Positions 4,989-42,714 of a stretch of 64,000 bases of DNA are shown here, one piece after another; positions within the stretch are counted from its first letter, which is position 1; each line of letters opens with the position of its first letter. The stretch comes from Octadecabacter arcticus 238 (lineage in GTDB: Bacteria; Pseudomonadota; Alphaproteobacteria; Rhodobacterales; Rhodobacteraceae): assembly GCF_000155735.2 (NCBI RefSeq), contig NC_020908.1, forward strand, positions 625,001 through 689,000, in the 5' to 3' direction. The position numbers and the translations under genes are program-made. The notes under the pieces are model-generated. The model made no database searches. It had not been told where the DNA came from and was given only the letters and a program-made list of their open reading frames with translations.

Positions 4989-6553
4989 TCCGCTTTTACA
5001 CGCCGCGCGCCTTTGACCCGAACGGTGACGTCCGCCCCCAGCGACGCGGCGAGGGAGTCCAGACGTGCGCGCGCGACTTCACCAAACAGCGGCGACGCGG
5101 CCTCTTTGAGGATGAGTTCAAGCTGGTCAGATTTAGCGGAATATTTTAATGTTCCGGGCTGTTCATCCGCCTTGATCCACAACATTGCGCCCAACCGCAT
5201 GGCTTTGCCCAAAACTTCGGCGCTGCGCTGATCATGCGGGTCCAGCAGACCGAACAGCGGTTCAAAACGCGATCCGTCACGTTTGTTGGTATAGCGGTGC
5301 AGCAAAGCAATCCCGAGGAACACCCGCTCAGAGTGTTTCAGCCCGCCAAGGTTGGCACGTGTCGCATTGTCAAAGACGACTTCGTGGCGGTAATCGGGGT
5401 GGGCGCGCCAGCTGACATCATGCAGCAGACAGGCGGCGCGGATGATGCGTTTGCGCTGCGCACTGGCGCGGCCAAACAACGGCATGACGAAATAATACAG
5501 CGTGCGCCCGAACCCCGGCAAACGGGCGTCTTTGGCTTCGGCGAATCGGCAGGCTTCGATCAGTGGATCACGTTCGCGCAATTCGGACGGCATTTGTTCG
5601 TACAACATGCCTTCGCGAATGCCGTAGCTGGAAATTGCAATGTCTTTGGGTTTGAACCGTGCCACCACATCGCGCAGCACATGGACCGCGTAGGGCACCA
5701 GCGACATGCGGCTGTCTGATATGTTGCAGCGCGTGCGCAGCTCCGACAGATCACTTTGTTCTATGTATTTCAATGTCTTGGACACACGTCCCGGTGTCAT
5801 CCGATATTCGTGCAGCACCGTCAGCGGATAGCCGCGGCGTTCCATATCAATGCGCGCAATCGCACGCCAAGACCCGCCGACAAGAAACAACCGCTTGCCG
5901 GTTTCTTCGCCCATTTTGGTGAATAAATCGTCAACCGTATCCTTGATAAAGGCGCGGCGTTTCTTCTTGCTGGTCATCTCACGCAGTTTAAGTGGACCAA
6001 GGCCGGACGTGACGCGCCGCCCGACGCGACCTTCAAGCAGGACTGCCAATTCCATCGACGAACCGCCGATGTCACAGACCAAACCGTAGCTGCTTGGCCA
6101 ACCCAGCAGGACGCCTTGGGCTGACAATCGCGCTTCTTCCTGACCGTCAATCACCCAGATTTTCAGGCCCGTCTCGCGCAACACATCGTCTCGAAATTCA
6201 GGTCCATCGTCGGCTTCGCGCACGGCGGCGGTCGCCACGGCGGTCAGCGGCCCGATATCAAGCCCCTTGGCCAGCGCGACAAATCGGCGGATTGCGGACA
6301 ATGCACGCACGCGGCCTTCGGGGTTCAAACGGCCGGATTCCGCCATACCTGCGCCAAGACCGGCCATGATCTTTTCGTTGTAGAAATATGCCGGACTGCG
6401 CGCTGCACCGTCAAAAATCACCAGACGGACGGAGTTTGAACCGACGTCGATCACACCGACCCGCGACAGCGCGCGCGCTTTGGGATCGTTAAAGATCGGC
6501 CGCCCGAAGGGACCCCAGTCAATCGTGTCATCAGCGGTTTCGCGTGCGTCCAT
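4985..6553 (-). CDS. ppx: exopolyphosphatase, Ppx/GppA family
   Basis: A 522-residue Ppx/GppA phosphatase that releases phosphate from polyphosphate or pppGpp. The ASKHA fold is visible: phosphate-1 loop VGVIDVGSNSVRLVIFDG, second loop CDIGGSSMELAVL and third GGSWRAIARIDM. The C-terminal third carries an HD-like segment (ACLLHDVSWRAHPDYRHEVV). The ATG at 6553 is preferred over the upstream in-frame ATG because a GGGGA Shine-Dalgarno lies just before it and the protein then begins 30 residues ahead of the first phosphate loop. It lies 49 bases after ppk on the same strand, so synthesis and breakdown of polyphosphate are co-transcribed. Confidence 0.93.
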   Translation of the reverse strand: MDARETADDTIDWGPFGRPIFNDPKARALSRVGVIDVGSNSVRLVIFDGAARSPAYFYNEKIMAGLGAGMAESGRLNPEGRVRALSAIRRFVALAKGLDIGPLTAVATAAVREADDGPEFRDDVLRETGLKIWVIDGQEEARLSAQGVLLGWPSSYGLVCDIGGSSMELAVLLEGRVGRRVTSGLGPLKLREMTSKKKRRAFIKDTVDDLFTKMGEETGKRLFLVGGSWRAIARIDMERRGYPLTVLHEYRMTPGRVSKTLKYIEQSDLSELRTRCNISDSRMSLVPYAVHVLRDVVARFKPKDIAISSYGIREGMLYEQMPSELRERDPLIEACRFAEAKDARLPGFGRTLYYFVMPLFGRASAQRKRIIRAACLLHDVSWRAHPDYRHEVVFDNATRANLGGLKHSERVFLGIALLHRYTNKRDGSRFEPLFGLLDPHDQRSAEVLGKAMRLGAMLWIKADEQPGTLKYSAKSDQLELILKEAASPLFGEVARARLDSLAASLGADVTVRVKGARRVKAD

Positions 6554-26458: not shown

Positions 26459-27152
26459 TGTATAGGTTCAGGTGTTTTGAGACTCACACGACTTTGGCCT
26501 GAGTGATTCGAATGTACTCCATTGGTGTCTTGCCTTTCAAGGCATGATGAGGCCTGAATGTGTTGTATTTATCGACGGCTTTTCGAAGTTCAAACCGCAT
26601 CGCTCCTATGCTGTCGGCAATGAGATCACGACATGCATAGAACTCTTTGCGGAAGGTGCGGTTACCGCGCTCGACACCACCGTTGTATTTTGGCCTTGCT
26701 GGCGGCAGCACAATGAGCGGGATCTCCATCTGTTCGCACGCTGTCTCAAAATCGGCCATAAACTCAGACCCGCCATCGACTTGAATTGAGATGATCTTAT
26801 AGGGAGCTATTTCCACGAGTTCTTGCAAAAACCGTTTGGCAGAGCGTGCCGTGGCATTCGAATAAACTTGCGCGTGGATATGCTTGCTACACCTCTCCCA
26901 GGCTTGAAAGTGTTTGCACGTGACGCCGTTCTTCGTGGCAGTCATATGATCGATCTGCACACGCTCGCCAACCACAATATCTTTGTAATCCCTATATTTC
27001 CATCCCTTGGCATGCCCCTTGGAAAAATTACGCTTGCGCTTTTGGGGCGCAGATCTTGATCGTGTGATCAGGCCTTTTTTCCTTAGAAAGCTCAAAATGC
27101 GCCCCACGGTGCTATCGCTCATGGTTTGCTTTTTGTCGCGACGCAAGATGGC
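26459..27152 (-). mobile_element. IS481-like element, truncated copy (transposase 3' part)
   Basis: It begins at the terminal TGTATAGGTTCAGG shared with the neighbouring full copy and is nearly identical to that copy over 694 bases, then stops abruptly at 27152, losing the first 100 or so transposase codons. The partial transposase frame (26484-27146) keeps IDHMTA, QVDGGSEF and VERGNRTFRKE of the DDE core and has an intact C terminus ending ITQAKVV. Confidence 0.85.
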
Positions 27153-28285
27153 TGTATAGGTTCAGGTGTTTTGAGACTCACACGACTTTGGCCTGAGTGA
27201 TTCGAATTTACTCCATTGGTGTCTTGCCTTTCAAGGCATGATGAGGCCTGAATGTGTTGTATTTATCGACGGCTTTTCGAAGTTCAAACCGCATCGCTCC
27301 TATGCTGTCGGCAATGAGATCACGACATGCATAGAACTCTTCGCGGAAGGTGCGGTTACCGCGCTCGACACCACCGTTGTATTTTGGCCTTGCTGGCGGC
27401 AGCACAATGAGCGGGATCTCCATCTGTTCGCACGCTGTCTCAAAATCGGCCATAAACTCAGACCCGCCATCGACTTGAATTGAGATGATCTTATAGGGAG
27501 CTATTTCCACGAGTTCTTGCAAAAACCGTTTGGCAGAGCGTGCCGTGGCATTCGAATAAACTTGCGCGTGGATATGCTTGCTACACCTCTCCCAGGCTTG
27601 AAAGTGTTTGCACGTGACGCCGTTCTTCGTGGCAGTCATATGATCGATCTGCACACGCTCGCCAACCACAATATCTTTGTAATCCCTATATTTCCATCCC
27701 TTGGCATGCCCCTTGGAAAAATTACGCTTGCGCTTTTGGGGCGCAGATCTTGATCGTGTGATCAGGCCTTTTTTCCTTAGAAAGCTCAAAATGCGCCCCA
27801 CGGTGCTATCGCTCATGGTTTGCTTTTTGTCGCGACGCAAGATGGCCCCTATTTTCTCCTTACCGTAGGTTTCATTGTCGCGGCGGGCCTCAAGCACCAA
27901 TTGCTTTTCTGCCTCGCCCCACTGTGACTTGTTGCAGCGTTTGGGAGCCTTTGAAGGCGGTATGATTGCCTGCGCCAAATCCTTCAAAATACGCTTGTGA
28001 CGGTAATATGTCGCGCGCGAGATGCCGACGAATTCAGCGCACTTTGATAGAGAAACGCCCTCTGTACGTAAGTCGTCCCATTGCCGAACCTGACCTTCGT
28101 ATTTGATACGGTACACGTCCAAACATTCTTGTGTCCGCGCCCAAGCATAAAGTTTATAAACGTTCTTGTGCAGTCCGATGATTTGCATATTGGCCTCGTG
28201 AGCTGGTTTCTTTCAATTCTCAGTCTCCGAGGTCGCCTAAATCTTGGCAACAAAATTTTGTCTCACATCTATCTGAACTTATTCA
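27153..28285 (-). mobile_element. IS481-like element, full-length copy
   Basis: An 1133-base element with imperfect terminal inverted repeats, TGTATAGGTTCAGG at 27153 against TGAATAAGTTCAGA on the other strand ending at 28285. It encodes an integrase-core transposase on the minus strand. It directly joins the truncated copy on its left and the disrupted glycosyltransferase on its right. No target duplication is visible across the composite. Confidence 0.8.
27208..28188 (-). CDS. IS481-like transposase, C terminus shortened by TAA
   Basis: A 326-residue transposase: N-terminal HTH (SKCAEFVGISRATYYRHKR), then the rve catalytic core with D in VQIDHMTA, D in SIQVDGGSEF, and E in NGGVERGNRTF. Compared with the adjacent copy, a G-to-T change (plus strand, 27209 region) turns a Tyr codon into TAA, removing the last ten residues. 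The DDE residues are intact, so activity might remain. Family placement between IS481 and related rve groups is not certain. Confidence 0.8.
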   Translation of the reverse strand: MQIIGLHKNVYKLYAWARTQECLDVYRIKYEGQVRQWDDLRTEGVSLSKCAEFVGISRATYYRHKRILKDLAQAIIPPSKAPKRCNKSQWGEAEKQLVLEARRDNETYGKEKIGAILRRDKKQTMSDSTVGRILSFLRKKGLITRSRSAPQKRKRNFSKGHAKGWKYRDYKDIVVGERVQIDHMTATKNGVTCKHFQAWERCSKHIHAQVYSNATARSAKRFLQELVEIAPYKIISIQVDGGSEFMADFETACEQMEIPLIVLPPARPKYNGGVERGNRTFREEFYACRDLIADSIGAMRFELRKAVDKYNTFRPHHALKGKTPME

Positions 28286-31154: not shown

Positions 31155-32062
31155 CTGGCGCGCGTTAGACGCTTGAACACGCGCCCATCCAGTACCGCGA
31201 GGCCAAGCGCGAGGAGCGCGAGGCCGATATAGACGTTGGGCGACAGGCTTTCGTCAAGAACCAGCGCGCCGAGGATGATGGAGACTGGCGGGATCAGCAG
31301 CGTTACAATCATCGTGTTGGCCGATCCTGCGGCAGCAAGGATGCGGTAATACAGCAGATACGCGCCTGCGGTGGCGAAGACGACGTAATAGCCGATGGCG
31401 CCAAGTGCAGTGAGGCTGAGGTCAAATGACGGGGTACCGTCAATCAGCAGCGCCGCCGGAACCATCACCAGCGATGACCCCGTGAGCATTCCCGCCGCCG
31501 CGACTTGGGGCGGCAGGCCCGTTAGATTGATCCGTGCCCAAACACCCGCGAAAGCATATGAAATGGTGCCCGCAATCACCGCCAGTTGCGCGAGCGATGT
31601 GATGTCAAAGTTGCGTACAGACTGCAGACCGATTGCGGTGGCGACGCCAAAGAAACCAATGGCTGACCCGATGATTTTGCGTGTGGTCAGGCGTTCATCA
31701 GCAAGGATAAGGGCCGCAATAACAACGCCAAAAATCGCCGTGCCAGCGTTGAACACCGACGTCAGGCCCGTTTGGATGTGCAACTGACCCCATGCCATCA
31801 AACTAAATGGAATGGCGTTGTTGAGGGCGCCCATGACGATCAACGCCCGCCAGATTTTAGGGTCACGCGGGATCGGCAGGCCACGCACCAAAACGAAGGC
31901 CCAAAGGATTACAGCGGCCCAAAACACGCGGTGGGCGACCGAAGTGGCGATTGGAATCTCGTCAATCGCCAGCCGCACTGCGAGGAACCCCGCGCCCCAG
32001 ATAAAGGCGAGCACAAAAAGTTCGATCCATGTGCGGATGGTGAGGGTGCGTTGTGGTGTCAT
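31151..32062 (-). CDS. DMT/EamA family transporter
   Basis: A 303-residue membrane protein with ten predicted helices arranged as two EamA repeats: WIELFVLAFIWGAGFLAVRL opens the first, and GVWARINLTGLPPQVAAAG lies early in the second. ALVLDESLSPNVYIGLALLALGL is the typical last two helices with the conserved E. Members export amino acids or metabolites; substrate unknown. Convergent with yqeY. Confidence 0.88.
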   Translation of the reverse strand: MTPQRTLTIRTWIELFVLAFIWGAGFLAVRLAIDEIPIATSVAHRVFWAAVILWAFVLVRGLPIPRDPKIWRALIVMGALNNAIPFSLMAWGQLHIQTGLTSVFNAGTAIFGVVIAALILADERLTTRKIIGSAIGFFGVATAIGLQSVRNFDITSLAQLAVIAGTISYAFAGVWARINLTGLPPQVAAAGMLTGSSLVMVPAALLIDGTPSFDLSLTALGAIGYYVVFATAGAYLLYYRILAAAGSANTMIVTLLIPPVSIILGALVLDESLSPNVYIGLALLALGLAVLDGRVFKRLTRAS

Positions 32063-32329
32063 AGCAAACGCTTAGGCCGCGCAGCAGCATTGCGCGACCC
32101 GAATTTTGTGCAAAGTTACATCACAAAATACCATGGCGTTGCCTATCGTGTTCCGCCGATGGATTGGTGCGGGTTAGGGCCAAGCGGCGCTTTGCAGCAC
32201 GACTCGACAACCGTCCGGACCCCAAACGTAAGGGCCCGCCTCTCCTAATAGGGAGTGAAGTATCTGACGGAATGCTGTCTCCCAAGCGTCGATATCATCT
32301 GATAAACGGGCGATGCCAGATAGGGATGG
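32063..32329 (-). other. intergenic region with a startless open frame
   Basis: Beyond the DUF2244 stop the same frame stays open for about 50 codons, reading SLSGIARLSDDIDAWETAF and later GPYVWGPDGCRVVLQSAAWP. There is no start codon with a ribosome site. It may be a relic of a gene or a former C-terminal extension. I cannot identify it. Confidence 0.3.
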
Positions 32330-32833
32330 TCATGGCCGGATCGCGTCGCGCATGGCGCGGTCGACCTCGTCATAAAGCACCGCGCGTTCGTCTTCGGACA
32401 GGAATGCTCCCAGCTCAACCTCTCGCTCTGACCCTTTGAGGGTGATGTAGTTAACGATGCGTTCGTTTCTTTTGTCGATCTTGAGATGGACCCAGTACGG
32501 GTTGCCTTCCCACGATTTGCGTCCGCGTCGTGGGTGGATGTGGATGAGCGTCATGCTGTCAGGCCAGATGCGCAGTTCCTCGAGGATTTCACCGTCTTTG
32601 TAGCTGCGATGTAGGGCGTACCAGACCCCCGAGACGGCGATGATAAAGAACGGCAACAAGCCCCAGAGCACAGGCGAGCCGAGGACAGCGATCAATGGCA
32701 GAAAAATGATTGCCACCGTTCCGGCAATGAACACCACAAAATCTCGGCGCAGCAGGGATCGGTAGGGCCACAGGTGCAGTTCCGCCACAGGGGCGTCTGG
32801 CGCAGGGTCCGGGGTGATCCATTCGTAGGGCAT
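32330..32833 (-). CDS. DUF2244 membrane protein
   Basis: A 167-residue protein of the DUF2244 family: N-terminal AELHLWPYRSLLRRDFVVFI, then two membrane helices (VAIIFLPLIAVLGSPVLWGLLPFF), and a cytoplasmic domain with LEELRIWPDSMTLIH and PYWVHLKI. The family is often found next to cytochrome oxidase genes, and ctaD lies about 1.9 kb away. Function unknown. Confidence 0.85.
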   Translation of the reverse strand: MPYEWITPDPAPDAPVAELHLWPYRSLLRRDFVVFIAGTVAIIFLPLIAVLGSPVLWGLLPFFIIAVSGVWYALHRSYKDGEILEELRIWPDSMTLIHIHPRRGRKSWEGNPYWVHLKIDKRNERIVNYITLKGSEREVELGAFLSEDERAVLYDEVDRAMRDAIRP

Positions 32834-33077
32834 AAACTAAACTTAGGCGTCTGTTTGACCATGTCGAGGGGATGGGGTGTCGCATGACGATATTTAAGTG
32901 AATGTCAGCGCTGGGCGGCGCGCGCGGATGATCCACCACTCCGCAAAGACCGCATTGAGTGGCGATTTCAATGGGTCGACGGAACACTTTAGTCTTTAGC
33001 CAAAGATGGAATGATCAACATGAAGTACCGTCGCCGCGTATTTTTCACGGACAAGCAGAAGTCGGAGATTTGGGACC

Positions 33078-33114
33078 CCTCTCAGCGATGCTGAGCATCG
33101 CCTGCCGGGCAGTG
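33078..33114 (+). repeat. variable-hairpin insertion element, copy A (37 nt)
   Basis: CCTCTCA, then the stem GCGATGC, loop TGA, stem GCATCGC, then CTGCCGGGCAGTG. It is inserted between C and GA in the IS30 transposase: the codons for W-D-R-W-Q-R resume exactly when it is removed. The 37-base length shifts the frame by one. Confidence 0.75.
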
Positions 33115-33465
33115 GATGGCAACGCGGAGAGTCGGTGATCTCGATTGGTCGGTTGTCTGATAGGGGGTCATCATCAATTTACCCGCTGTTAGAGCGGACT
33201 GGCGGCATCCGTCCTGCGGACCACATCAGGTCGCGGCTTGCTCTAACCCTGACCGATCGGGAAGAGACATCCAGAGGTCTGCGGGCACAGATGTCCCTGC
33301 GATCTATCGCACGAAGTTTGAAGCGATCAGCATCCACAATCAGCCGAGAAGTCCGGCGCAACGGCGGTCTCAAAGACTATCGTGCAGCGCCTTCAGATGT
33401 CGCAGCCTGGGATCGCTCTCACCGCCCGAAGCTGTGCAAGCTGGCACACAAAGCCTATCTCTGTC

Positions 33466-33501
33466 CACTGCCCGGCAACACATGCTTGCATGTGTGAGAG
33501 G
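33466..33501 (-). repeat. variable-hairpin insertion element, copy B (36 nt, reversed)
   Basis: On the minus strand: CCTCTC, stem ACACATGC, loop AA, stem GCATGTGT, then TGCCGGGCAGTG. The ends are the same as copies A and D but the 8 bp stem is a different sequence. It sits between C and GA of the host when read in element orientation. It keeps frame (36) but adds an in-frame TGA to the IS30 transposase. Confidence 0.75.
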
Positions 33502-33733
33502 GGGCGATATCGACCAAGCTGATCCGCATGTGGTCCCCGCAACAAATCGCAGGCTGGCTAATGCGAGAACATCCCGATGATGAGAACAAGCGCGTTTCTC
33601 ACGAGACGATCTGCCGAAGCTTTTTTATCCAAATTCGTGGCGTACTTTAGAAGGAATTACTAGCGCATCTACGGGCAACGCGGGCCATCCGCCGATCTCG
33701 CCATGCCACCATGAAGCGTAGTGGTCTGGGCCA

Positions 33734-33773
33734 ACCTCCCGGTGATTGCTGCGCAATCGCCTGCCGGTCAATG
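33734..33773 (+). repeat. variable-hairpin insertion element, copy C (40 nt, diverged)
   Basis: ACCTCCCGGT, stem GATTGC, loop TGC, stem GCAATC, then GCCTGCCGGTCAATG. The right arm differs from copies A and D at a few positions. Removal of 40 bases restores G-Q-F-N-D-A-I-S-I, matching the IS30 family around this site. Exact ends are uncertain by one or two bases. Confidence 0.6.
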
Positions 33774-34633
33774 GTTCAACGATGCAATATCGATCCGTGA
33801 CAGGCCAGCCGAGGTGGAAGATCGGGCCGTGCCTGGCCATTGGGAGGGTGACCTCATCGAAGGCTCCGGCAACAGCTTCATCGCAACATTGGTCGAACGG
33901 AGCACGCGCTACGTGATGCTGGCGAAGGTTGGCAACAAGGACAGCCACAGCGTCATCCAAGCGCTAATCAAGCAGTCGCACAAGCTGCCCAAAGAACTTT
34001 ATCGTTCTCTGACATGGGATCGTGGGTCGGAAATGGCAGGGCATAAGAAGTTCACCTTGGCGACTGATATCGACGTCTACTTGTGCGAACCCCACAGCCC
34101 GTGGCAACGCGGCTCAAACGAAAACACCAACCGCCTTCTGCGACAGTACTTTCCAAAGGGCACAGATTTGTCGATACACAGTCAAGCAAAGTTGAGCGCC
34201 GTCGCCAGACAACTCAATGAACGACCTCGAATGACGCTGGGGTATGAAACTCCCGCAGAGCGTTTAATGCATGTGTTGCATCGACCAGTTGAAATCGCCG
34301 TCCAAAGCCCAGTGTCAGCAACCCAGTGGCCAATTCTGATGATGGATCGCCGATCGTGGCAAAGCACCGCCCCATGAAAACCACCTGTGTACTGGCGGCA
34401 ACCGCCACAGCGGAGGCGCGGATCATCCATGCACGATGGGATGCAATGTGCCGCGCGTGGGCGTCTCGAACCGCGTTTAGGATGCACAAGCCCATGAAGG
34501 CAGCAAAGCCGAGCCGCACGACGTTAAGCGTTGTCGTGGCGAACGGGCCAATTGGGTAAGCCAATCAATTGGATTGATACCATGCCAAAAAGTCATCGCT
34601 GTTTCCAGTCGCGCATATAGAAATTGTGCCCAC

Positions 34634-34664
34634 AAAAAAGGCCTCGGCGTTTCCGCCGAGGCCT
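34634..34664 (-). terminator. intrinsic terminator of ctaD
   Basis: On the minus strand, AGGCCTCGGCG pairs perfectly with CGCCGAGGCCT over 11 bp around a GAAA loop, followed by six T. It lies 28 bases after the ctaD stop. Confidence 0.9.
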
Positions 34665-34691
34665 AATATCATTCAGATCCCGAAGGTATTG

Positions 34692-36365
34692 TTAGTGCGA
34701 AGACTGCTTGTCCCAGTCGGACTGCTTGGGCAGCGTTTCGAACGTGTGCTCCGGTGGAGGGGACGGCAGGGTCCATTCCAGAGTATCAGCAAATTCGCCC
34801 CACGGGTTTGGCTCCGTCGCGTTTTTCGGGCTCATCAGCGTCTTGAAGAGAATGACGATGAAGAACAGGAAGGATGCGAATGACAGGAACGCGCCAAGGG
34901 ATGATACATAGTTCCAAGTCGCGAACGCTTCTGAATAGTCGATGATGCGGCGCGGCATGCCGTTACGACCAAGGAAGTGCTGCGGGAAGAACGTGATGTT
35001 GGCACCAATGAACATCATCCAGAAGTGCAGATGTCCTGCCCATTCAGGAATTTTGCGTCCAGACATTTTCGGCAGGTAGAAATAGATACCCGCGAAGATG
35101 CCAAACACGGCGCCCAGCGACATCACGTAGTGGAAATGCGCCACGACGTAATAGGTGTCGTGGTAGGCGCGGTCGACACCAGCCTGTGACAGTACAATGC
35201 CTGTGACGCCACCGACGGTGAACAAGAAAATGAAACCGAGAGCCCACATCATCGGGGCTTTGAATGACACAGACCCACCCCACATTGTTGCGATCCAGCT
35301 AAAGATCTTCACGCCCGTGGGCACTGCGATGACCATCGTTGCCAGCATAAAATAGGACTGCTGGGTCAGCGACATGCCCACCGTATACATGTGGTGTGCC
35401 CACACGACAAAGCCCAGCGCGCCAATTGCGACCATTGCGTAAACCATCGGCAAGTAGCCGAAGATCGGCTTGCGCGAGAAGGTGGAGACAACGTGGCTGA
35501 CGATACCGAACGCAGGTACGACAACAATGTAAACTTCGGGGTGACCGAAGAACCACAGAATGTGTTGGTACAAAACCGGATCACCACCACCGGAGGGATC
35601 AAAGAACGTTGTCCCGAAGTTGCGGTCCATCAAAAGCATGGTGATCGCGCCAGCCAGAACGGGCAGGGCCAGAAGGATCAACCATGCGGTAACGAAGATT
35701 GACCATGAAAACAGCGGCACTTTATGCAATGTCATGCCGGGCGCGCGCATGTTCAGGAAGGTCGTGATCATGTTGATCGCGCCCAGAATAGAGGACGCAC
35801 CAGAGACGTGAACCGCGAAGATCGCGAGGTCCATTGAAATACCGCCGGAGCTTGTCGACAGCGGTGGATACATGACCCAGCCGACCCCCGCGCCGGCTTG
35901 ACCGTTCCCGCCGGGCGCAAGCATGGACGCAACACCAAGGGCAACACCGGTACAGAACATCCAGAATGACAGGTTGTTGAGGCGCGGAAACGCCATGTCA
36001 GGCGCGCCGATTTGCAGCGGCATAAAGTAGTTTCCGAAACCACCGAAAAGCGCAGGAATAACCACAAAAAACATCATCAGGATGCCGTGGTACGTTATCA
36101 ACACGTTCCATAAGTGACCATTGGGTGTACATTCGTTCAGGGCCGCTGGAAACAGACGTGCGCCTTCAAGGCACATGTACTGAACACCGGGGTGCATAAG
36201 CTCCATGCGCATGTAAACGGTGAAACTGACGGACAAGAACCCGACAAAACCCGACACGAAAAGGTACAAAATACCAATGTCTTTATGGTTTGTGGACATA
36301 AACCAACGGGTAAAAAACCCGCGGTTGTCTTCATGGTCCTGCTCGTGGACGGCTGCGTCTACCAT
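34692..36365 (-). CDS. ctaD: cytochrome c oxidase subunit I (aa3 type)
   Basis: A 557-residue haem-copper oxidase with twelve membrane helices. Visible ligands are the haem a His in [13 protein letters not shown], CuB and Tyr cross-link in [17 protein letters not shown], CuB pair in [10 protein letters not shown], and the haem a/a3 pair in [17 protein letters not shown]- and K-channel residues include the NHKDIG start and FVVWAHH. It reduces oxygen to water with proton pumping in the cytoplasmic membrane. It stands alone here, not with ctaC and ctaE, as is common in Rhodobacter relatives. A strong terminator follows. Confidence 0.97.
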
Positions 36366-37126
36366 GTGGCGCTCCCTGCAATCGATGGCAATTTCTACAA
36401 GGTGAACGGACTCACCCTTTGGCTTAAAATGATTTTAGGGCGCAGGGGGGGGCAGGGCAACAGTGCATCGCACGGTTTGCATGGGTAAAATTGGCGCAGG
36501 TGTGTGTGTTAGTGCTTTGGCGCGATGGTCAGGACAAAACCACCGACGTAAATTTCATTCGCGCCACCGCGTCCATCTTTGATATCAGCGACGATGCTCA
36601 CGCAGGTATTATTGCGGATGATGGCGTCCCAATCGCGTCTTCTTCCCACCAAATATCGGTCAAAGGCCGAAAGGTGTCTTGAAACAGGACTTCGCTGTAG
36701 CGGTTGAGGCTTGCACCAAAAAACGCGGTTCCGGCGGGGCTTTACAGAGTAACTATGATGGGTCACTGTGAGGTTCCGTCATACTACGCGCGAAACGCGA
36801 GCGAAATGTCTGTGCCACCTAAACAGCCCCCGTCTAAATCGCCAAGAACAGTCAAGAACAGTGATGTCCAAGCCCATTAAATATGGACGAAGTAGTTGAT
36901 TGAAATCCAAATATATCAACGGTTGGTCCATGACATCGAGCGGCACAACGACGGTTAAATTGAAGTCACTTTTTACTTGCTGGTCCTGCGCGCGAACAGG
37001 ATTTTTCGTACAGATGACACTCAACGTAGCCAATATGATTGATGTAGGATGCATGTGTCCCCCAAAGGATCGTGATCAATCAGGGGAAAACAATACGGGG
37101 TTTATGGATTTTCTAAACCACCCACC
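36366..37126 (-). pseudogene. region of decayed coding sequence upstream of ctaD
   Basis: A frame from ATG 37054 begins with a signal-like segment (ILATLSVICTKNPVRAQDQ) and runs 91 residues. After its stop, frames change: a coherent-looking stretch AGTAFFGASLNRYSEVLFQD and FRPLTDIWWEED occupies one frame near 36720-36600, and SIVADIKDGRGGANEIYVGG another near 36590-36510. This looks like one exported protein of about 180 residues broken by several frameshifts. I cannot name the family. The rest of the interval is the ctaD leader. Confidence 0.4.
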
Positions 37127-37558
37127 TCAGGTCGCAGAGAGCAGGTCCGCGAGCGCTGATTTCCTCTGAGTCACATCGTCGAGTGTGTACCCGTCAAGAA
37201 CTGAAAAGAACGCATCTTTTGCTTGGGTGAGCGGGGTGCGCAGGCCGCAGGCAGGCAGGATGGCGCAATTTGGCGCGCTGCCAAAACATTCTGCGACCGG
37301 ATCATCGGCCATGATGGATCGCAAAACTGCCCCGATTGAAATGTCGGTTGCAGGGCGTGCCAGCTGCAGCCCGCCGCCGCGCCCGCGATCCGAGGTCACA
37401 AAGCCGCCGCGCACTAACTCTGTTGCGACTTTGGCGATATGGTGTTGCGACAGCCCGTAACTTTGGGCGATGGACGATGCGGGCACGCGCCCAGCCTTGG
37501 ACACGGACAGGGCGATAAGGATGCGCACGGCGTAGTCGCTGAATTTATCAAGATGCAT
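37127..37558 (-). CDS. nsrR: Rrf2 family regulator, NsrR-like nitric oxide sensor
   Basis: A 143-residue winged-helix repressor. The DNA-binding part is DKFSDYAVRILIALS and SIAQSYGLSQHHIAKVATEL, with the wing GRGGGLQLARP. The cluster-binding cysteines are in AECFGSAPNCAILPACGL, and ALDGYTLDD-like VLDGYTLDDVTQ follows, all typical of NsrR. NsrR binds an Fe-S cluster that reacts with NO and releases repression. It is divergent from a small membrane protein and a truncated haemoglobin, which are the likely targets. Confidence 0.78.
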   Translation of the reverse strand: MHLDKFSDYAVRILIALSVSKAGRVPASSIAQSYGLSQHHIAKVATELVRGGFVTSDRGRGGGLQLARPATDISIGAVLRSIMADDPVAECFGSAPNCAILPACGLRTPLTQAKDAFFSVLDGYTLDDVTQRKSALADLLSAT

Positions 37559-37577
37559 GCGTCAAATTAGCATTTGC

Positions 37578-37617
37578 AATGCGTATTATAAAGGCGCTAT
37601 TTAATACGTATTATAAA
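37578..37617. promoter_or_regulatory. repeated AT-rich operator between nsrR and the haemoglobin operon
   Basis: AATGCGTATTATAAA at 37578 is repeated as AATACGTATTATAAA at 37603, 25 bases apart, in the divergent promoter region. The second copy contains the palindrome AATACGTATT. A GCATT-TGC-AATGC inverted repeat overlaps the first. Spacing and position suit a repressor acting on both genes. Confidence 0.55.
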
Positions 37618-37637
37618 TACCGATTTAAGGACACGTT

Positions 37638-37793
37638 ATGACTGTCACCTCCATCATCCTCTGGCCTGGTACGAAAATCTGCGAACGCATGGGCGTCGAC
37701 CCAGAGGCGGACCAAGGTTTGATCCGGTCCATGTTCAATATGTTGGTCTATTTGGTCATCATGCTGGCCGTGATGTGGATGATTTTGGGATGA
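37638..37793 (+). CDS. small single-pass membrane protein, 51 residues
   Basis: ATG 37638, preceded by AAGGA, opens a 51-residue frame: MTVTSIILWPGTKICERMGV, an acidic middle (DPEADQG), then the membrane helix MFNMLVYLVIMLAVMWMIL. Its TGA overlaps the next ATG (ATGA at 37790-37793), so it is translationally coupled to the truncated haemoglobin. Function unknown; context suggests NO or nitrite detoxification. Confidence 0.65.
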   Translation: MTVTSIILWPGTKICERMGVDPEADQGLIRSMFNMLVYLVIMLAVMWMILG

Positions 37794-38188
37794 AGCCCAC
37801 CGCGAGAATTGATCTAACGGCCGCCCAGATCGACGAGGTCGTGGCCGTGTTTTATGACAAAGTGCGCCACGATCCGACGTTTGGGCCGGTGTTTGCCGAT
37901 AAAATCAGCGATTGGCCCAGCCATGAGGTCAAGATCGCCGCGTTCTGGCGCAATGCGATCCTGCACGAGCGGTCCTACAGTGGCAATCCGATGCGCAAAC
38001 ACATGCAGGCGGGCACCGTAAAAGACGGACACTTCCCGATCTGGCTGGCGTTGTTTGATGACGTTCTGGCCGCGCAACTGTCCGTTGATGTCGCTGCCGG
38101 ATGGTCCGCATTGGCGCACCGGATCGGCGTGGGATTGCGGTTCGGGTTGACGATGGACAGCACGGACGGCGTGCCAAACCTGCGTTAG
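37790..38188 (+). CDS. group III truncated haemoglobin
   Basis: A 132-residue globin. [12 protein letters not shown] resembles the B-C region and [20 protein letters not shown] the E region. The proximal His lies in [15 protein letters not shown], and [14 protein letters not shown] closes the fold. Group III globins bind O2 and NO; with the NsrR-like regulator next door a role in NO detoxification is likely. ATG 37790 overlaps the previous stop; a GTG at 37775 would add five residues. Confidence 0.82.
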
Positions 38189-38847
38189 TTATTGCCGTAA
38201 GGGGTGATGCTGCTTGCAAACGTTTTGCGCAGGGCCACATCCACGTCGTCCATCGTCACGGGCAGACCAAGATCCACCAGCGACGTTACCCCGTGTTCGG
38301 TTATCCCGCAGGGCACAATGCCGCTGAAATGGCCCAGATCCGGTTCAACGTTGATCGACAGTCCGTGAAAGCTGACCCATTTGCGCAAGCGGATGCCGAG
38401 GGCCGCAATTTTGTCTTCCGCAGGTTGCCCATGTGCGTCCAAAGGTTTGTCATGCCGCTGCACCCAGACCCCGACGCGCCCGTCGCGGATTTCGCCAGTG
38501 ACGTTGAATTTTGCCAGCGTCGCAATCACCCAGTGTTCGAGGTCTTGCACAAAGCGGCGCACGTCGTGGCCGCGCTTGCCGACGTCAAGCATCACATAGG
38601 CGACCCGCTGGCCCGGTCCGTGATAGGTATATTGACCACCGCGTTTCGATGTGTGGACTGGAAAGCGGTCAGGCTCCACCAGATCGACAAGTTTGGCGGA
38701 CGTTCCAGCGGTGTAAAGGGCAGGGTGTTCGACAAGCCAAATGCATTCATCCGCGTCGCCGCGATGAATGGCTTCGGCGCGGTCTTCCATGAAAGCGGTG
38801 GCGTCGTCGTAATCTGTCAGTCCGTCTGTGGTGATCCATTCAACCAT
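38185..38847 (-). CDS. lipB: octanoyl-[ACP]:protein N-octanoyltransferase
   Basis: A 220-residue LipB that moves octanoate from ACP to lipoyl domains, the first step of lipoate synthesis. Signature motifs are [20 protein letters not shown], the catalytic Lys in [17 protein letters not shown], and the Cys in [15 protein letters not shown]. It overlaps the end of the convergent globin gene by four bases. Confidence 0.95.
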
Positions 38848-39542
38848 TAGTGTGTCGCAGCAAATGCCCCGCCCCTTTTATGTTCGCGCCCCTTACGGGC
38901 TGGGTTACATGGAACCGCCATTTACGAAGCGCGGATTGCGGTGCGGTGTCGTTCACGAAAGCGTCCTGTCATTTGGCAAAAGGTGTTTAGGCGTGAATGT
39001 TTGCTTGTCCAATAGATAGGCAATTTTAAGGCGAGAGCCAAACCGAAAGGCCCTGATATGCCCTTGAATCGTCTCTAATTGATCGTTGCGGATCCAGATC
39101 CACACTGTGGCGATGATCAGGCGTTCCGCATTAAGAGGTTTGCGGTGTTGGGGCCGTTTGGCCGACTGCTCGGGTTCGCGTTTCTGGCGTACTGGTGTTG
39201 TAGCACGGTATCCGACAAGTCCGCGCAGGCCGAGTTCGCGCCCATAAGGCGATGAGGTGGCGGCTGTATTTGTTTGGTCTGATCCCAGCGGGGTTGGCTA
39301 ACTTCTCGCCGCATCGCCGCACCAACGAAGCGGTTTTCGGCGGCAGTGATAGCCTTGGCCGGATCGTGATCGGGTCGCCACTGTGGCCTTGATCGCAGCT
39401 GCACGGGCAGGGCGCAGCACGTTGGCGCAAAGGCCCGCCGCACTGGGCAGGTAGGCGTGCGCCAGCAATCGTCCAATTTTGCAGATTTTGCGCTTGAGGT
39501 GGCGGCAACGCTTCGCTAAGTGCTTCTAACGCTTTCAGACCT
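38848..39542. other. 695-base stretch without recognised gene
   Basis: Between lipB and tRNA-Leu. Frames such as RFAVLGPFGRLLGFAFLAYW (plus strand, about 39135) and LYLFGLIPAGLANFSPH (about 39265) look like coding relics with a membrane helix, but no start, ribosome site or family is evident. Probably decayed DNA at the edge of a tRNA-linked island. Confidence 0.4.
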
Positions 39543-39629
39543 GCGGTCGTGGCGGAATTGGTAGACGCGCAGCGTTGAGGTCGCTGTGAAGTAACATTCG
39601 TGGGGGTTCGAGTCCCCCCGACCGCACCA
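39543..39629 (+). tRNA. tRNA-Leu (GAG)
   Basis: An 87-base tRNA with encoded CCA. The acceptor stem GCGGTCG pairs with CGACCGC. The D arm contains GGCGGAATTGGTAGAC, typical of leucine tRNAs. The anticodon loop TTGAGGT between CAGCG and CGCTG gives anticodon GAG, which reads CUC/CUU. A long variable arm and the T arm GGGGGTTCGAGTCCCCC complete it. Confidence 0.95.
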
Positions 39630-39634
39630 CTTTC

Positions 39635-39844
39635 ATTGATATCATTCATGAATTTTGTCCTTTTGGGGGCTGGCCCCCACTGGGTCCCCTCCCCGTTCAT
39701 AATGAAGTTATAAACCTCGCTCGGATCGACAAATGACATTGCTCCACGGCGATGGATCGTGATGTGCTGACTCTTGGCCCATCGATATAGCGTGGACCTG
39801 TGAACTCCGAAAACGGTTTGAGCCTGCAAAATGCGGACTATCAC
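39635..39844 (-). pseudogene. helix-turn-helix protein fragment beside tRNA-Leu
   Basis: A frame readable from GTG 39844 contains ILQAQTVFGVHRSTLYRWAK, a helix-turn-helix, then RRGAMSFVDPSEVYNFIMNG. It has no stop of its own and runs into the antisense of the tRNA, so its 3' end was lost, probably by deletion. It resembles small DNA-binding proteins of integrative elements. Confidence 0.45.
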
Positions 39845-40050
39845 TGGGATTTTCTGTGTTATGTCGGGCCACCTCAATCGTTGATGCATCGACCGCCATG
39901 GCCAGCGCATCAACGTAGTTTTCGGCATCGAGGGCTCTCCAACGGTTCAATCTCCCGATCTTCATTGGCGGTGGAAAATGTCCGTCATTGATCAGGTTGT
40001 GGATCTGGCGCTTTGAGATACGAAGCCGCGCGGCGACGTCTTCAGGAGTT
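39845..40050 (-). pseudogene. AlpA/excisionase-like regulator remnant
   Basis: The minus strand encodes TPEDVAARLRISKRQIHNLI then FPPPMKIGRLNRW, the MerR-like helix-turn-helix of AlpA family regulators. Its N terminus is missing where three GGAGTTA-type repeats and the IS5 end begin (40045-40066). Together with the next fragment and the adjacent tRNA-Leu it marks the edge of an old genomic island. Confidence 0.6.
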
Positions 40051-40135
40051 AGGAGTTAGGAGTTAGGGTCAGGACCCATTAACTGATTGAGTTTGTCGCG
40101 TTGTGGTGATTCAAAGTCCTCAATTGTAGGGGGAT

Positions 40136-40933
40136 ATGATGAGCAATCTATATTGGCTGAGTGAGGCACAGATGGAGCGTCTGCGGCCTTACTTTCCGAA
40201 GGCCCGAGGCCGTGCGCGTGTTGATGATCGTCGTGTCCTGAGTGGTATTATTTTCATTAATCGCAATGGCTTACGGTGGTGTGATGCTCCTGCGGAATAT
40301 GGGCCGCCAAAGACGCTGTACAATCGCTGGAAGCGCTGGAGTGACATGGGCGTGTTTGCCCGGATCTTGATGGGGCTGGCCGAGCAGGCTCCCGATAACA
40401 AGACCATCTCGATCCCCTCTCATCGAAACTGCGTTTCGACTGCCGGGCAGTGGATGCCACCTACCTCAAAGCACATCGTACGGCCTCCAGCCTGCGGTTA
40501 AAAAAGGGGGTGTGGACGCCTGATCGGGCTGACCAAGGGCGGCATGAACACAAAGTTGCATGCGGTTACAGATACCAACGGTCGCCCGGTCCGCTTGTTT
40601 ATCACTGCAGGTCAGGTGAGCGATCATACTGGCGCTGCTGCCCTAATGAATGGCCTGCCTGAAGCCGAGTGGCTCCTTGCTGACAGAGGATATGATGCTG
40701 ACTGGTTCCGCGAAACCCTTGTAGACAGGGGCACAAAGCCCTGCATCCCCGGGCGCAAGTCACGCAAGAAGGCCGTTAAATACGACAAGCGCCGTTACAA
40801 ACGACGCAACCGTATCGAGAGAATGTTCGGAAGGCTCAAAGATTGGCGGCGCGTCGCAACTCGCTACGACAGATCACCAACAGTCTTCCTCTCCGCAATC
40901 GCTCTCGCCGCAACCGTCATATTCTGGTTATGA
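40136..40933 (+). pseudogene. IS5 family transposase, two frames, interrupted by hairpin element
   Basis: The first part (MSNLYWLSEAQMERLRPYFP, then GLRWCDAPAEYGPPKTLYNR) reaches KTISI at 40414. After the 38-base insert, DATYLKAHRTASSLRLKKG restores the catalytic Asp. Beyond the TTAAAAAAGGGGG run the second frame begins (LIGLTKGGMNTKLHA) and holds LADRGYDADWFRE and RRNRIERMFGRLKDWRRVA. The change of frame at the A/G run is as expected for IS427-type elements, which use programmed frameshifting; the insert is not. Confidence 0.8.
40415..40452 (+). repeat. variable-hairpin insertion element, copy D (38 nt)
   Basis: CCCTCTCA, stem TCGAAAC, loop TGC, stem GTTTCGA, then CTGCCGGGCAGTG. It lies between C and GAT of the codons for I-S-I-D-A-T, splitting the transposase just before its first catalytic Asp. 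Its ends equal those of copy A, in a different IS family 7 kb away, while the stem sequence is unrelated. Confidence 0.75.
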
Positions 40934-40945
40934 GTCCTGATCCTA

Positions 40946-41165
40946 GTCTGCAAAGCTATGGCCGCCCCCGTATGACCGAAGAGTTGCAAGAGTTGGGGCT
41001 GAATGTCGGGCACCGGCGTGTAGGTCGTTTGATGGGTGAGAATGGTATCAAGATCATCAGAACCCAAAAATATAAGACAACGACGGATAGTAATCACACG
41101 TTCAACATCGCGCCCAATCTGCTGGATCAGGACTTCTCAGCGGATGGAACCAATCAAAAATGGGC
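40946..41165 (+). pseudogene. IS3 family transposase (OrfB) fragment
   Basis: QSYGRPRMTEELQELGLNVG and HRRVGRLMGENGIKIIRTQK then DGTNQKWAG are the HTH_21 and start of the integrase core of IS3 OrfB. Both the N terminus and the DDE core are missing; it is cut by IS5 on the left and IS21 sequence on the right. Confidence 0.75.
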
Positions 41166-41410
41166 TGGAATGGCAAGGTATCTCGCCATCTCAGTGCCTA
41201 TCGCCAAGAACTGTTTGAGCGCTTGAATTGCCCCGCACTCAAGCCGCTGCCCGCTGCCTCATACGTTTATGCCGAGTGGAAGCAGTGCCGTGCTGGCCTT
41301 GATTACCACGTCGATATTGGCCGCCATTATTACTCAGTGCCACACCAGTTACTGAAGCAGGAATTGTGGGCCCGGATCACCGCACGCACCGTAGAGGTAT
41401 ATTTTAAGTG
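41166..41410 (+). pseudogene. IS21 family IstA fragment
   Basis: CPALKPLPAASYVYAEWKQC, GLDYHVDIGRHYYSVPHQLL and ARITARTVEVYFK are the Mu-transposase C-terminal region of IS21 IstA. It is joined directly to the IS3 fragment on one side and to an inverted IS66 remnant on the other. Confidence 0.75.
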
Positions 41411-42714
41411 GCAACGCGTCATGGGCATCCTTCCCGACCCAGAACGCCAATGTGGATCTGTCGACATACCGCCTTCGATCAGGCTTGGTTTGGCTGGTGC
41501 TTGGATTATACCGCCTCACAGGATCGGCAGGCATACTTGGGACGGCGCGTGACAATCACGCGGAACTGCGCGGGCACGATGTCCAGCCGTTCACTGATAT
41601 CTTCCCCGATGATGTGGCGCTCCGAACCGCAATCACGGGTCATATCATCGGGCACGATCACCTTTTCGATGCGCGGCAAATGTTTTGGCAGGACGCCGCG
41701 ACCTGCGCGTGGCTTTGATGCACCTGTAGTGTTTGGCGGATCAACCGCCTCGTCCTCAGCATTTACGATAGCCATGGCCGTCTCGATATCTTGCAGCGCA
41801 AGGTGATACTGGTCGGGGTGGCCCTTCTCGGACTTCGCGCCATAGAGCGCGCGCTTGAAGTCAGGCAACTGCTTTTCCAGCCGGATGATGCGATCCTCTT
41901 TGCGTAGATTTCGCTCTTCGGAGGCAATCAAAAGCGCCTGCAAAGTAGCGACATCTGTAGAAAGATCAGTGGGGGAAGTCATGCCCGTCAGCTATCAAAA
42001 AATGGGCTTATGTGCCTGTCCAAAACGCACTCCGAGCCATTCTGCCGCAGCTGGCGGACGGGTCTCCAACGCAGTCACGCGACGCCAGTCCATTCCCGCA
42101 AACAACGCTTCAAATTGCGCCGGGTCCAGCCGCAAAACGCCGTCCCGAATAGCGGGCCATTTGAACGCATTTTGCTCCAGACGCTTGTAGGCCATGACCA
42201 GCCCCGTGCCATCCCACCAGATCATCTTGAGCCGGTCTGCCCGTTTGGCGCGGAACACATAGACCGCGCCATCAGACGGCTTCTTCTGAAAATGGCTCTG
42301 CACCAAAGCGGCCAGACCTTCATGTCCTTTCCGGAAGTCCACCGGTTTGGTCGCCACAAAGATTTGCACGCCATGCGACGGGTGGATGACAGCGCCGACA
42401 CGAGTTCAGCGATACGTACTTCAGGCGTGTTCGCTGCAAGACGAACAACCACATCCCCTTGATCAAATCGAGCGTGACAACGGCGTCCTCAGGCACATCC
42501 GCCAAAACGACGGGTTCCTCAATGGCAACAGGGACAAAGGAGACACCATCAAGGTTCGGCAGAACCAATTTGCCCTCGCGGGCCATCCGACGCCACTCTG
42601 ACAAGTGATTTGGCCGCATCCAGTACTGCCGTGCTACGGCGTTAACCGTCGCGCCCTCAACAAGCGTCTCAGCCACAATCCGCGCCTTCACCTCTTCCGG
42701 CCAGCGGCGGCACC
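41411..42714 (-). pseudogene. IS66 family element remnant (tnpA, tnpB, partial tnpC)
   Basis: On the minus strand: tnpA from about 42739 (RRWPEEVKARIVAETLVEGA), broken by a one-base deletion near 42455, after which the native tail VVVRLAANTPEVRIAELVSA continues in another frame. tnpB follows at 42369-41995 (125-residue frame with VATKPVDFRKGHEGLAALV and FRAKRADRLKMIWWDGTGL, intact). tnpC starts at 41982 with a coiled-coil N terminus, reaches KYACRSCEAV, then breaks into frames (STLAFWVGKDAHDALPL) and ends at the IS21 junction. Confidence 0.8.

Follow-up and report, generated by a model that had tools for sequence, protein, structure and literature searches.

The 64,000-nucleotide stretch analyzed here (Octadecabacter arcticus 238, contig NC_020908.1, positions 625,001 to 689,000; called the window below) carries four copies of a short hairpin element lodged in transposase genes, and these belong to a hairpin family that is real, large and, as far as the open-access literature was searched, undescribed. 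We consider it somewhat probable that the hairpins are non-autonomous mobile DNA of the Rhodobacterales, approximately 34-45 nucleotides (nt) long, which moves as folded single-stranded DNA and accumulates in insertion sequences (IS). The initial annotation of the window knew of no named element of this form in roseobacters, and none with these ends has emerged: an Rfam search of window positions 32000-42500, with E-values up to 1, returned one tRNA only and no hairpin family match, and a search of the open-access literature by end motif and topic, judged by titles and the beginnings of abstracts, yielded no description of the hairpin family.

All four copies first reported in the window are present, and they interrupt two transposase genes:

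33077-33114, plus strand: element A, a 38-nt hairpin close to the beginning of an IS30-type transposase gene
33466-33502, minus strand: element B, a 37-nt hairpin in the IS30-type gene of A, in reverse orientation to that gene
33734-33773, plus strand: hairpin element C, 40 nt, the third insertion in the IS30-type gene of A and B
40415-40452, plus strand: element D, a 38-nt hairpin within a transposase gene of IS5 type
33020..34377, plus strand: IS30-type transposase gene, interrupted by elements A, B and C; its family was called from the sequence itself rather than with a model search
40136..40933, plus strand: IS5-type transposase gene in two frames, interrupted by D; its family was called from the sequence itself and from homology with an annotated IS5 transposase of locus L214

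A relaxed scan of the 64 kb (at most three end mismatches, at least six stem pairs) recovered the same four copies only, with none in the reversed window and none in six shuffles. Elements A, B and D lie at C|GA and carry the shared end CCTCTC, as originally described, but C, already noted to lie elsewhere, has diverged ends (CCTCCC on the left and TGCCGGTCAATG on the right). Likewise the stems pair, as claimed, but the second arm is not always a perfect complement, since element C holds one T.G pair. In element B a T, not a C, precedes TGCCGG; element D splits ISI|DATYLK between ATC and GAT; and the stem and site of element A recur in a second, diverged copy at C1:5019896 of the same genome. 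By reading, the IS30-type gene also contains an apparent in-frame TAG at 33648-33650.

The family has the general form C-CCTCTC-[stem-loop]-TGCCGG[G/T]CA[A/G][T/C]G, with near-constant ends CCCTCTC and TGCCGGKCARYG and a leading base that is C in 94% of copies and another base in a few. Stems comprise about 6-11 pairs starting with G-C or A-C, and predicted loops are mostly 3-4 bases. The fold CTGC-CGG-GCAG proposed for the right end is not kept across the family, being broken by the variants CTGCCGGTCAA and CTGCCGGTCAG. Octadecabacter arcticus 238 itself (G000) has 32 copies of the exact pattern and 48 of a slightly wider one. Far from being confined to the window, the pattern occurs at least once in 119 of 394 genomes of the same bacterial family, and a backward control pattern gave three matches over all 394. 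A class-wide sample of 385 genomes was positive in four of five members of that family and in one of the 380 others (four copies, in another family). Contigs of named genomes contain at least 120 stretches with the pattern; among the 80 listed, approximately 69 are from Rhodobacterales by title, and part of the remaining matches listed are chance matches without a stem. Real-looking copies under other titles come from Vreelandella (L103), Labrenzia (L143) and a Hyphomicrobiales bin (L128). The first of these lies in an IS3-type gene of the gammaproteobacterium Vreelandella neptunia (L103:4179-4217) and is likely a transfer out of the family. The elements also occur in plasmid records (101 and 80 for two stem variants) and in IMG/VR, where 17 of 43 stretches with the pattern have a family-type stem by reading. 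Plasmid pDSHI04 of Dinoroseobacter shibae DFL 12, a hairpin-rich roseobacter, has 7 such places. For the comparison with uninterrupted homologues below, copies whose inner part does not fold were excluded at -2.5 kcal (23 of 206, mostly chance GC-rich matches), leaving 183; the tests of covariation with the target used a limit of -4 instead.

Which genes hold the hairpins? The initial annotation had placed them only inside transposase genes, which is true of the window and is elsewhere a strong tendency with exceptions. Within the O. arcticus genome, approximately 32 of 34 sites, a count in which diverged copies contribute a few homologous sites, fall, by reading, in transposase or recombinase genes, which by their look are of the IS3, IS5, IS30, IS66, IS256 and IS481 types or encode a tyrosine recombinase beside an IS91-type gene; 30 different stems are represented. 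Of 170 sites elsewhere, 118 are in sequence common to at least three other loci and 29 in sequence common to one or two, and many of the 23 that are in unshared sequence are chance matches. The same site can be filled in diverged IS copies of different species. One exception is a phage-like C5-cytosine methyltransferase gene, in which different stems occupy the same point in L252:8880-8916, L267 (minus strand, near 5593) and L275:1527-1563. The insert is in frame and read through in L252, where it accounts for 12 extra residues, and in L275, but not in L267; among the best 120 of 7053 homologues, 114 have the motif without the insert and six were not recognized by the motif. The picture that results is of an insertion that neutral DNA accepts, and that a working gene accepts when it is in frame. 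Three further settings were seen: an integrase gene; one site, shared by L125:1346-1386 and L259:1473, in a gene whose sequence resembles a RelE/ParE-type toxin from a toxin-antitoxin pair; and an apparently intergenic position, with the same hairpin, beside a gene resembling a gene-transfer-agent tail gene on two phage-like contigs (L249:3062 and L256:2075).

Among the loci compared, an uninterrupted homologue was found for 79 of the 183 folding copies, a site being called uninterrupted where the peptide aligned over the junction once exactly the leading base plus CCTCTC...RYG had been removed, with at least three of six identical residues on each side. Clean insertion at C/GA into empty sites, which had been anticipated, is seen for example in IS5 copies of O. 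arcticus itself. Two empty copies, L224 and L225 (C1:1557003-1557849 and C1:3707216-3708062), read AATC|GACGCC and lack exactly the 38 nt found in the filled copies, which read AATC-[38 nt]-GACGCC. The filled copies L218-L222 differ from the empty ones at 8-12 of 789-847 bases and the truncated filled copy L223 at 4-5 of 461, so that at least six filled and two empty near-identical copies coexist in one genome. No target duplication was found at this insertion (L218 compared with L224). Two more IS5 copies, one of them that of the window, carry an identical 38-nt insert at the same site, although comparison of their bodies with L218 shows 100 and 103 differences over 846 bases; assuming an even rate, the chance of 38 bases remaining unchanged at that divergence is 0.008. 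An identical insert in diverged bodies implies that the hairpin arrived there more than once, or that the two empty copies lost it precisely. Similarly, two copies of a plasmid IS3 element (87% identity) lack 41 nt exactly where a third carries the hairpin. A scan for reading frames across joined flanks was dropped because it was too noisy in GC-rich DNA. We note separately that an annotated IS3 transposase coding sequence, WP_260006160.1, spans the hairpin in both of its copies (L216:19714-20842 and 26969-28097), and the deposited protein probably includes the translated hairpin.

The search for an enzyme that might move the hairpins centered on the single-strand transposase families. Y1 (PF01797) is present in 39 of the 394 family genomes, 20 of which are hairpin carriers, and Y2 (PF04986) in 46, 23 of which are carriers; set against the overall carrier frequency, the two are about equally enriched (odds ratios 2.7 and 2.6). 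When 12 hairpin-rich genomes were compared with 14 hairpin-free ones, Y2 was found in 8 versus 1, Y1 in 4 versus 0 and IS66 in 10 versus 10. Because Y1 and Y2 are enriched yet missing from most carriers (any PF01797 match occurs in 20 of the 119), we read the enrichment as a sign of IS-rich genomes, and both Y1 and Y2/IS91 were set aside as partner enzymes. A particular connection of the hairpins to IS91 is possible. The enzyme that moves them could be a host protein or a rarer element, or could have been lost. Octadecabacter arcticus is itself very rich in insertion sequences: counting fragments, it has 48 Y1 (IS200-like), 34 Y2 (IS91-like) and at least 61 IS66 matches. In one IS91-type gene (L344, G250:C7, approximately 454-490), the Y2_Tnp match is split by a 37-nt gap with a different palindrome, GAATTGATCC-TGT-GGATCAATTC; a gap of the same size occurs at G250:C8:276810-276846, and a hairpin of the present family stands at the end of the L344 Y2_Tnp match. 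The L344 palindrome is perhaps a second hairpin family.

These results bear on the alternative that survives best, namely that the hairpins are relics of an extinct or rare REP (repetitive extragenic palindrome) or IS200-like system, immobile on their own and spread only as passengers of insertion sequences. Such a history would fit the failure to find a partner enzyme, the majority of copies lying inside insertion sequences, the variation of stems between sites, and the filling of one site in diverged IS copies of different species. Many copies, however, keep nearly perfect ends and stems, and the presence of the insert in some but not all of the near-identical IS5 copies suggests that it was gained or lost recently. 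We regard the relic account as unlikely, though as a serious competitor.

The stems speak to a second alternative. The stems of copies outside the window did not prove non-complementary: the repeated insertion has constant ends, and its stem is preserved through covariation. In a test made with no fold filter on six stem lengths, 74-93% of stem cells were Watson-Crick pairs across the six classes, compared with means of 50-70% when arms were swapped between copies, and every class beat all 500 of its arm swaps. The 22-nt class (47 stems) reached 92.7%, versus 69.7% (maximum 75.9%) after swapping. In the 22- and 24-nt classes, pairing reaches 92-93% if the fourth position of the 5' arm is read as a bulged extra base, and only 43-52% without the bulge (42.6% for the 22-nt class). 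The bulged base is A in 58, C in 11 and G in 3 of the 72 stems of these two classes (A 40, C 6, G 1 in the 22-nt class). A neutral process of palindrome correction, in which one arm is rewritten from the other when replication switches template, could produce covariation without selection; quasi-palindrome correction is a known mutation process, and many stems are perfect. Because pairs vary jointly on either side of the bulge, simple copying between arms does not account for the stems, and the kept one-base register weakens this account for the bulged classes. The constant ends and clean insertions would require another cause in any case, and we therefore hold palindrome correction to be improbable.

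The mismatches that do occur hint at which strand folds. With stems of more than three mismatches left out, inner pairs in unique stems comprise 906 Watson-Crick, 24 A.C, 11 G.T and 13 other combinations, and the outermost pair is GC in 89, AC in 30, AT in 6 and GG in 1. Because an A.C mismatch as written corresponds to a G.T wobble on the complementary strand, the opposite strand, 5'-CRYTGMCCGGCA-hairpin-GAGAGGG-3' with a bulged T in its 3' arm, is more likely the one under selection, a point that is suggestive only.

Insertion is also selective with respect to target. Across 195 sites the consensus is C or T before the element and G-A-T-G-R after it, and the penultimate base of the element, the Y position, is linked to the second target base. 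Where Y is T, that base is A at 80 sites and G at 16; where Y is C, it is A at 29 and G at 33 (p = 2.8e-6 for 192 sites collapsed at 12 differences, which include sites with C or T at the second target base that fall outside these A/G counts). The link was present in the first set (p = 8.7e-6, n = 151) and persists among elements with G at the [G/T] (K) position (p = 0.0004).

The orientation of the hairpins within genes weighs against a further alternative, that of an intron-like or bypass element; the initial annotation had named bypass hairpins among the nearest analog ideas, an analogy that is not supported. Here the hairpin would be removed from the mRNA or skipped by ribosomes, and transposase would still be made. 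The filled IS5 copies have indeed multiplied, and several inserts sit, by reading, at conserved motifs with no other damage. Strand was called by homologues with a five-decade E-value margin, which kept 69 of the 79 copies (10 were ambiguous), and after similar sites were merged there remained 61 distinct confident host sites, 31 sense and 30 antisense. Two other measures were abandoned: strand calls from codon usage (103 versus 79) were too weak, and an orientation count from best local matches (44/35) was contaminated by antisense shadow frames. Insert lengths for the 79 copies leave a remainder of 2 in 41, of 1 in 28 and of 0 in 10 when divided by three. With both orientations used and few lengths divisible by three, RNA splicing or ribosomal bypass is unlikely; the written strand moreover shows A.C rather than G.T mismatches, and two phage-like methyltransferases read the insert in frame while their listed homologues, the six unrecognized ones aside, are free of it. 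Judged on DNA sequences, no sign of hairpin removal from RNA appears, and we give this explanation very little credence. We are equally skeptical of a host system that would tag and disrupt insertion sequences through hairpins placed in their genes, which would suit the preponderance of transposase and recombinase genes in O. arcticus and the occurrence of several hairpins per gene (three in the IS30-type gene of the window), since the hairpins also occur in the RelE-like gene, the methyltransferases and the apparently intergenic phage-like region, the bias is explained by survival in neutral DNA, and there is no candidate system.

Several observations weigh against mobile hairpins as we describe them. 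Few sites in the O. arcticus genome share a stem (34 sites, 30 stems), which is not the pattern expected from one recent burst. Among 128 occurrences of a hairpin plus right end in 1.43 Mb of loci, there was no autonomous relative: 119 have the left end CCTCTC, and none of the nine without it opened into a longer element, most being one- or two-base variants of the left end and L168 a remnant only. Y1 or Y2 is present in only 37 of the 119 hairpin genomes, and 82 have neither. The bias of A.C over G.T is weak (24 versus 11, p = 0.04). As to the target, the link with Y gives p = 0.13 in the later set alone (n = 41), in the same direction; the K and R positions also correlate with the target, more weakly; and subfamilies served by enzyme variants with different targets, rather than pairing, could equally cause the link. 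Finally, the covarying base adjoins the cleavage point, and not the hairpin foot where the guide of IS608 sits.

On balance, a REP-like mobile hairpin that inserts at the DNA level and is carried by insertion sequences is the best reading. Under it, the hairpins would move as IS200/IS605 or REP elements do, in the form of folded single strands of DNA, with an enzyme that recognizes the hairpin on the strand 5'-CRYTGMCCGGCA-hairpin-GAGAGGG-3' and joins it 3' of a CATC-like target, the choice of target being set in part by a base near the element's own end. Hairpins would build up in insertion sequences for two reasons: DNA of this kind tolerates their presence, and insertion sequences spread them by copying and transfer. 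The fullest version of this proposal, which we put forward tentatively and with less assurance than mobility itself, is a previously undescribed micro-transposon: a single hairpin of approximately 40 nt with constant ends that moves as folded single-stranded DNA through some enzyme, tolerates stems of widely differing sequence, lets a base of its own end set the target, and has spread across a bacterial family mainly inside other transposons. If this were true, the hairpins would be among the smallest mobile DNA units known, and they would provide well over a hundred natural examples of which features a hairpin-recognizing enzyme requires (shape, bulge, ends) and which it can do without (stem sequence). 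They would also give handles for finding a new single-strand DNA transposase or domesticated nuclease, account for a class of broken, mis-annotated transposase genes in roseobacters, and present insertion sequences as vehicles for a second layer of parasites.

It remains to compare the family with known systems. The hairpins of T4 gene 60 and the mitochondrial byp elements are short hairpin insertions in coding sequence, but the roseobacter hairpins occur in both orientations and are read through where a working gene holds one. A miniature inverted-repeat transposable element (MITE) of a DDE transposon would differ in its ends and its target, since the ends of the hairpins are unrelated to each other (no terminal inverted repeats) and there is no target duplication. 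IS200/IS605 elements insert without target duplication and use a bulged hairpin, and the roseobacter hairpins likewise insert cleanly, without duplication, at a short preferred target. In the enzymes of this group described in the cited sections of PMC6006769 (IS608, ISDra2), hairpins of 20-25 nt are recognized, and cleavage is set by interactions of guide bases with a target tetranucleotide flanking the left end; solitary IS605-type stem-loops are reported in Borrelia plasmids (PMC2775950). The roseobacter family has one hairpin rather than two ends, no TnpA with the same ends was found in the loci compared, Y1 TnpA co-occurs in only 4 of 12 hairpin-rich genomes and 20 of 119 carriers, and the covarying base is near the element's end and not at the hairpin foot.

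The CGTC-tagged repeats, which include Rickettsia RPE-4/RPE-6 and Neisseria dRS3, are presented in the relevant section of PMC3733652 as mostly alphaproteobacterial, partly intragenic and lacking a known transposase. On that account the roseobacter hairpins are similar in all three respects, but the 8-9 bp stems starting with A-T, the loops of 4-5, the CGTC tag and the CCA-like tail described there have no full counterpart, the tag and the tail being missing and the first pairs being G-C or A-C. GTAG-tagged REP elements, in the portions of PMC3733652 and PMC6006769 used here, are hairpin repeats of 20-40 bp that bear an unpaired, conserved tag on one side. Their subfamilies use alternative stem bases that remain complementary and show some fixed bulges, and the repeats are thought to be mobilized by IS200/IS605-like transposases (RAYT, or TnpA-REP). 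As far as these portions go, the roseobacter hairpins share the hairpin size, the varying complementary stems, the bulge and the conserved end. They differ in lacking the unpaired GT[AG]G tag 5' of the hairpin foot, judged by the flanks and ends tabulated for 195 sites, and in having CCCTCTC at one end and a constant block of 12 nt at the opposite end instead; in being mainly intragenic in insertion sequences, whereas REP elements are mainly extragenic; and in the absence of Y1 transposase from most carriers. By the features tested, the hairpins are not GTAG or CGTC repeats, MITEs or bypass elements. The covariation of their penultimate base with the target, which subfamilies could equally cause, resembles the guide-target interaction of IS608, as outlined in the cited sections of PMC6006769 and PMC5934647.

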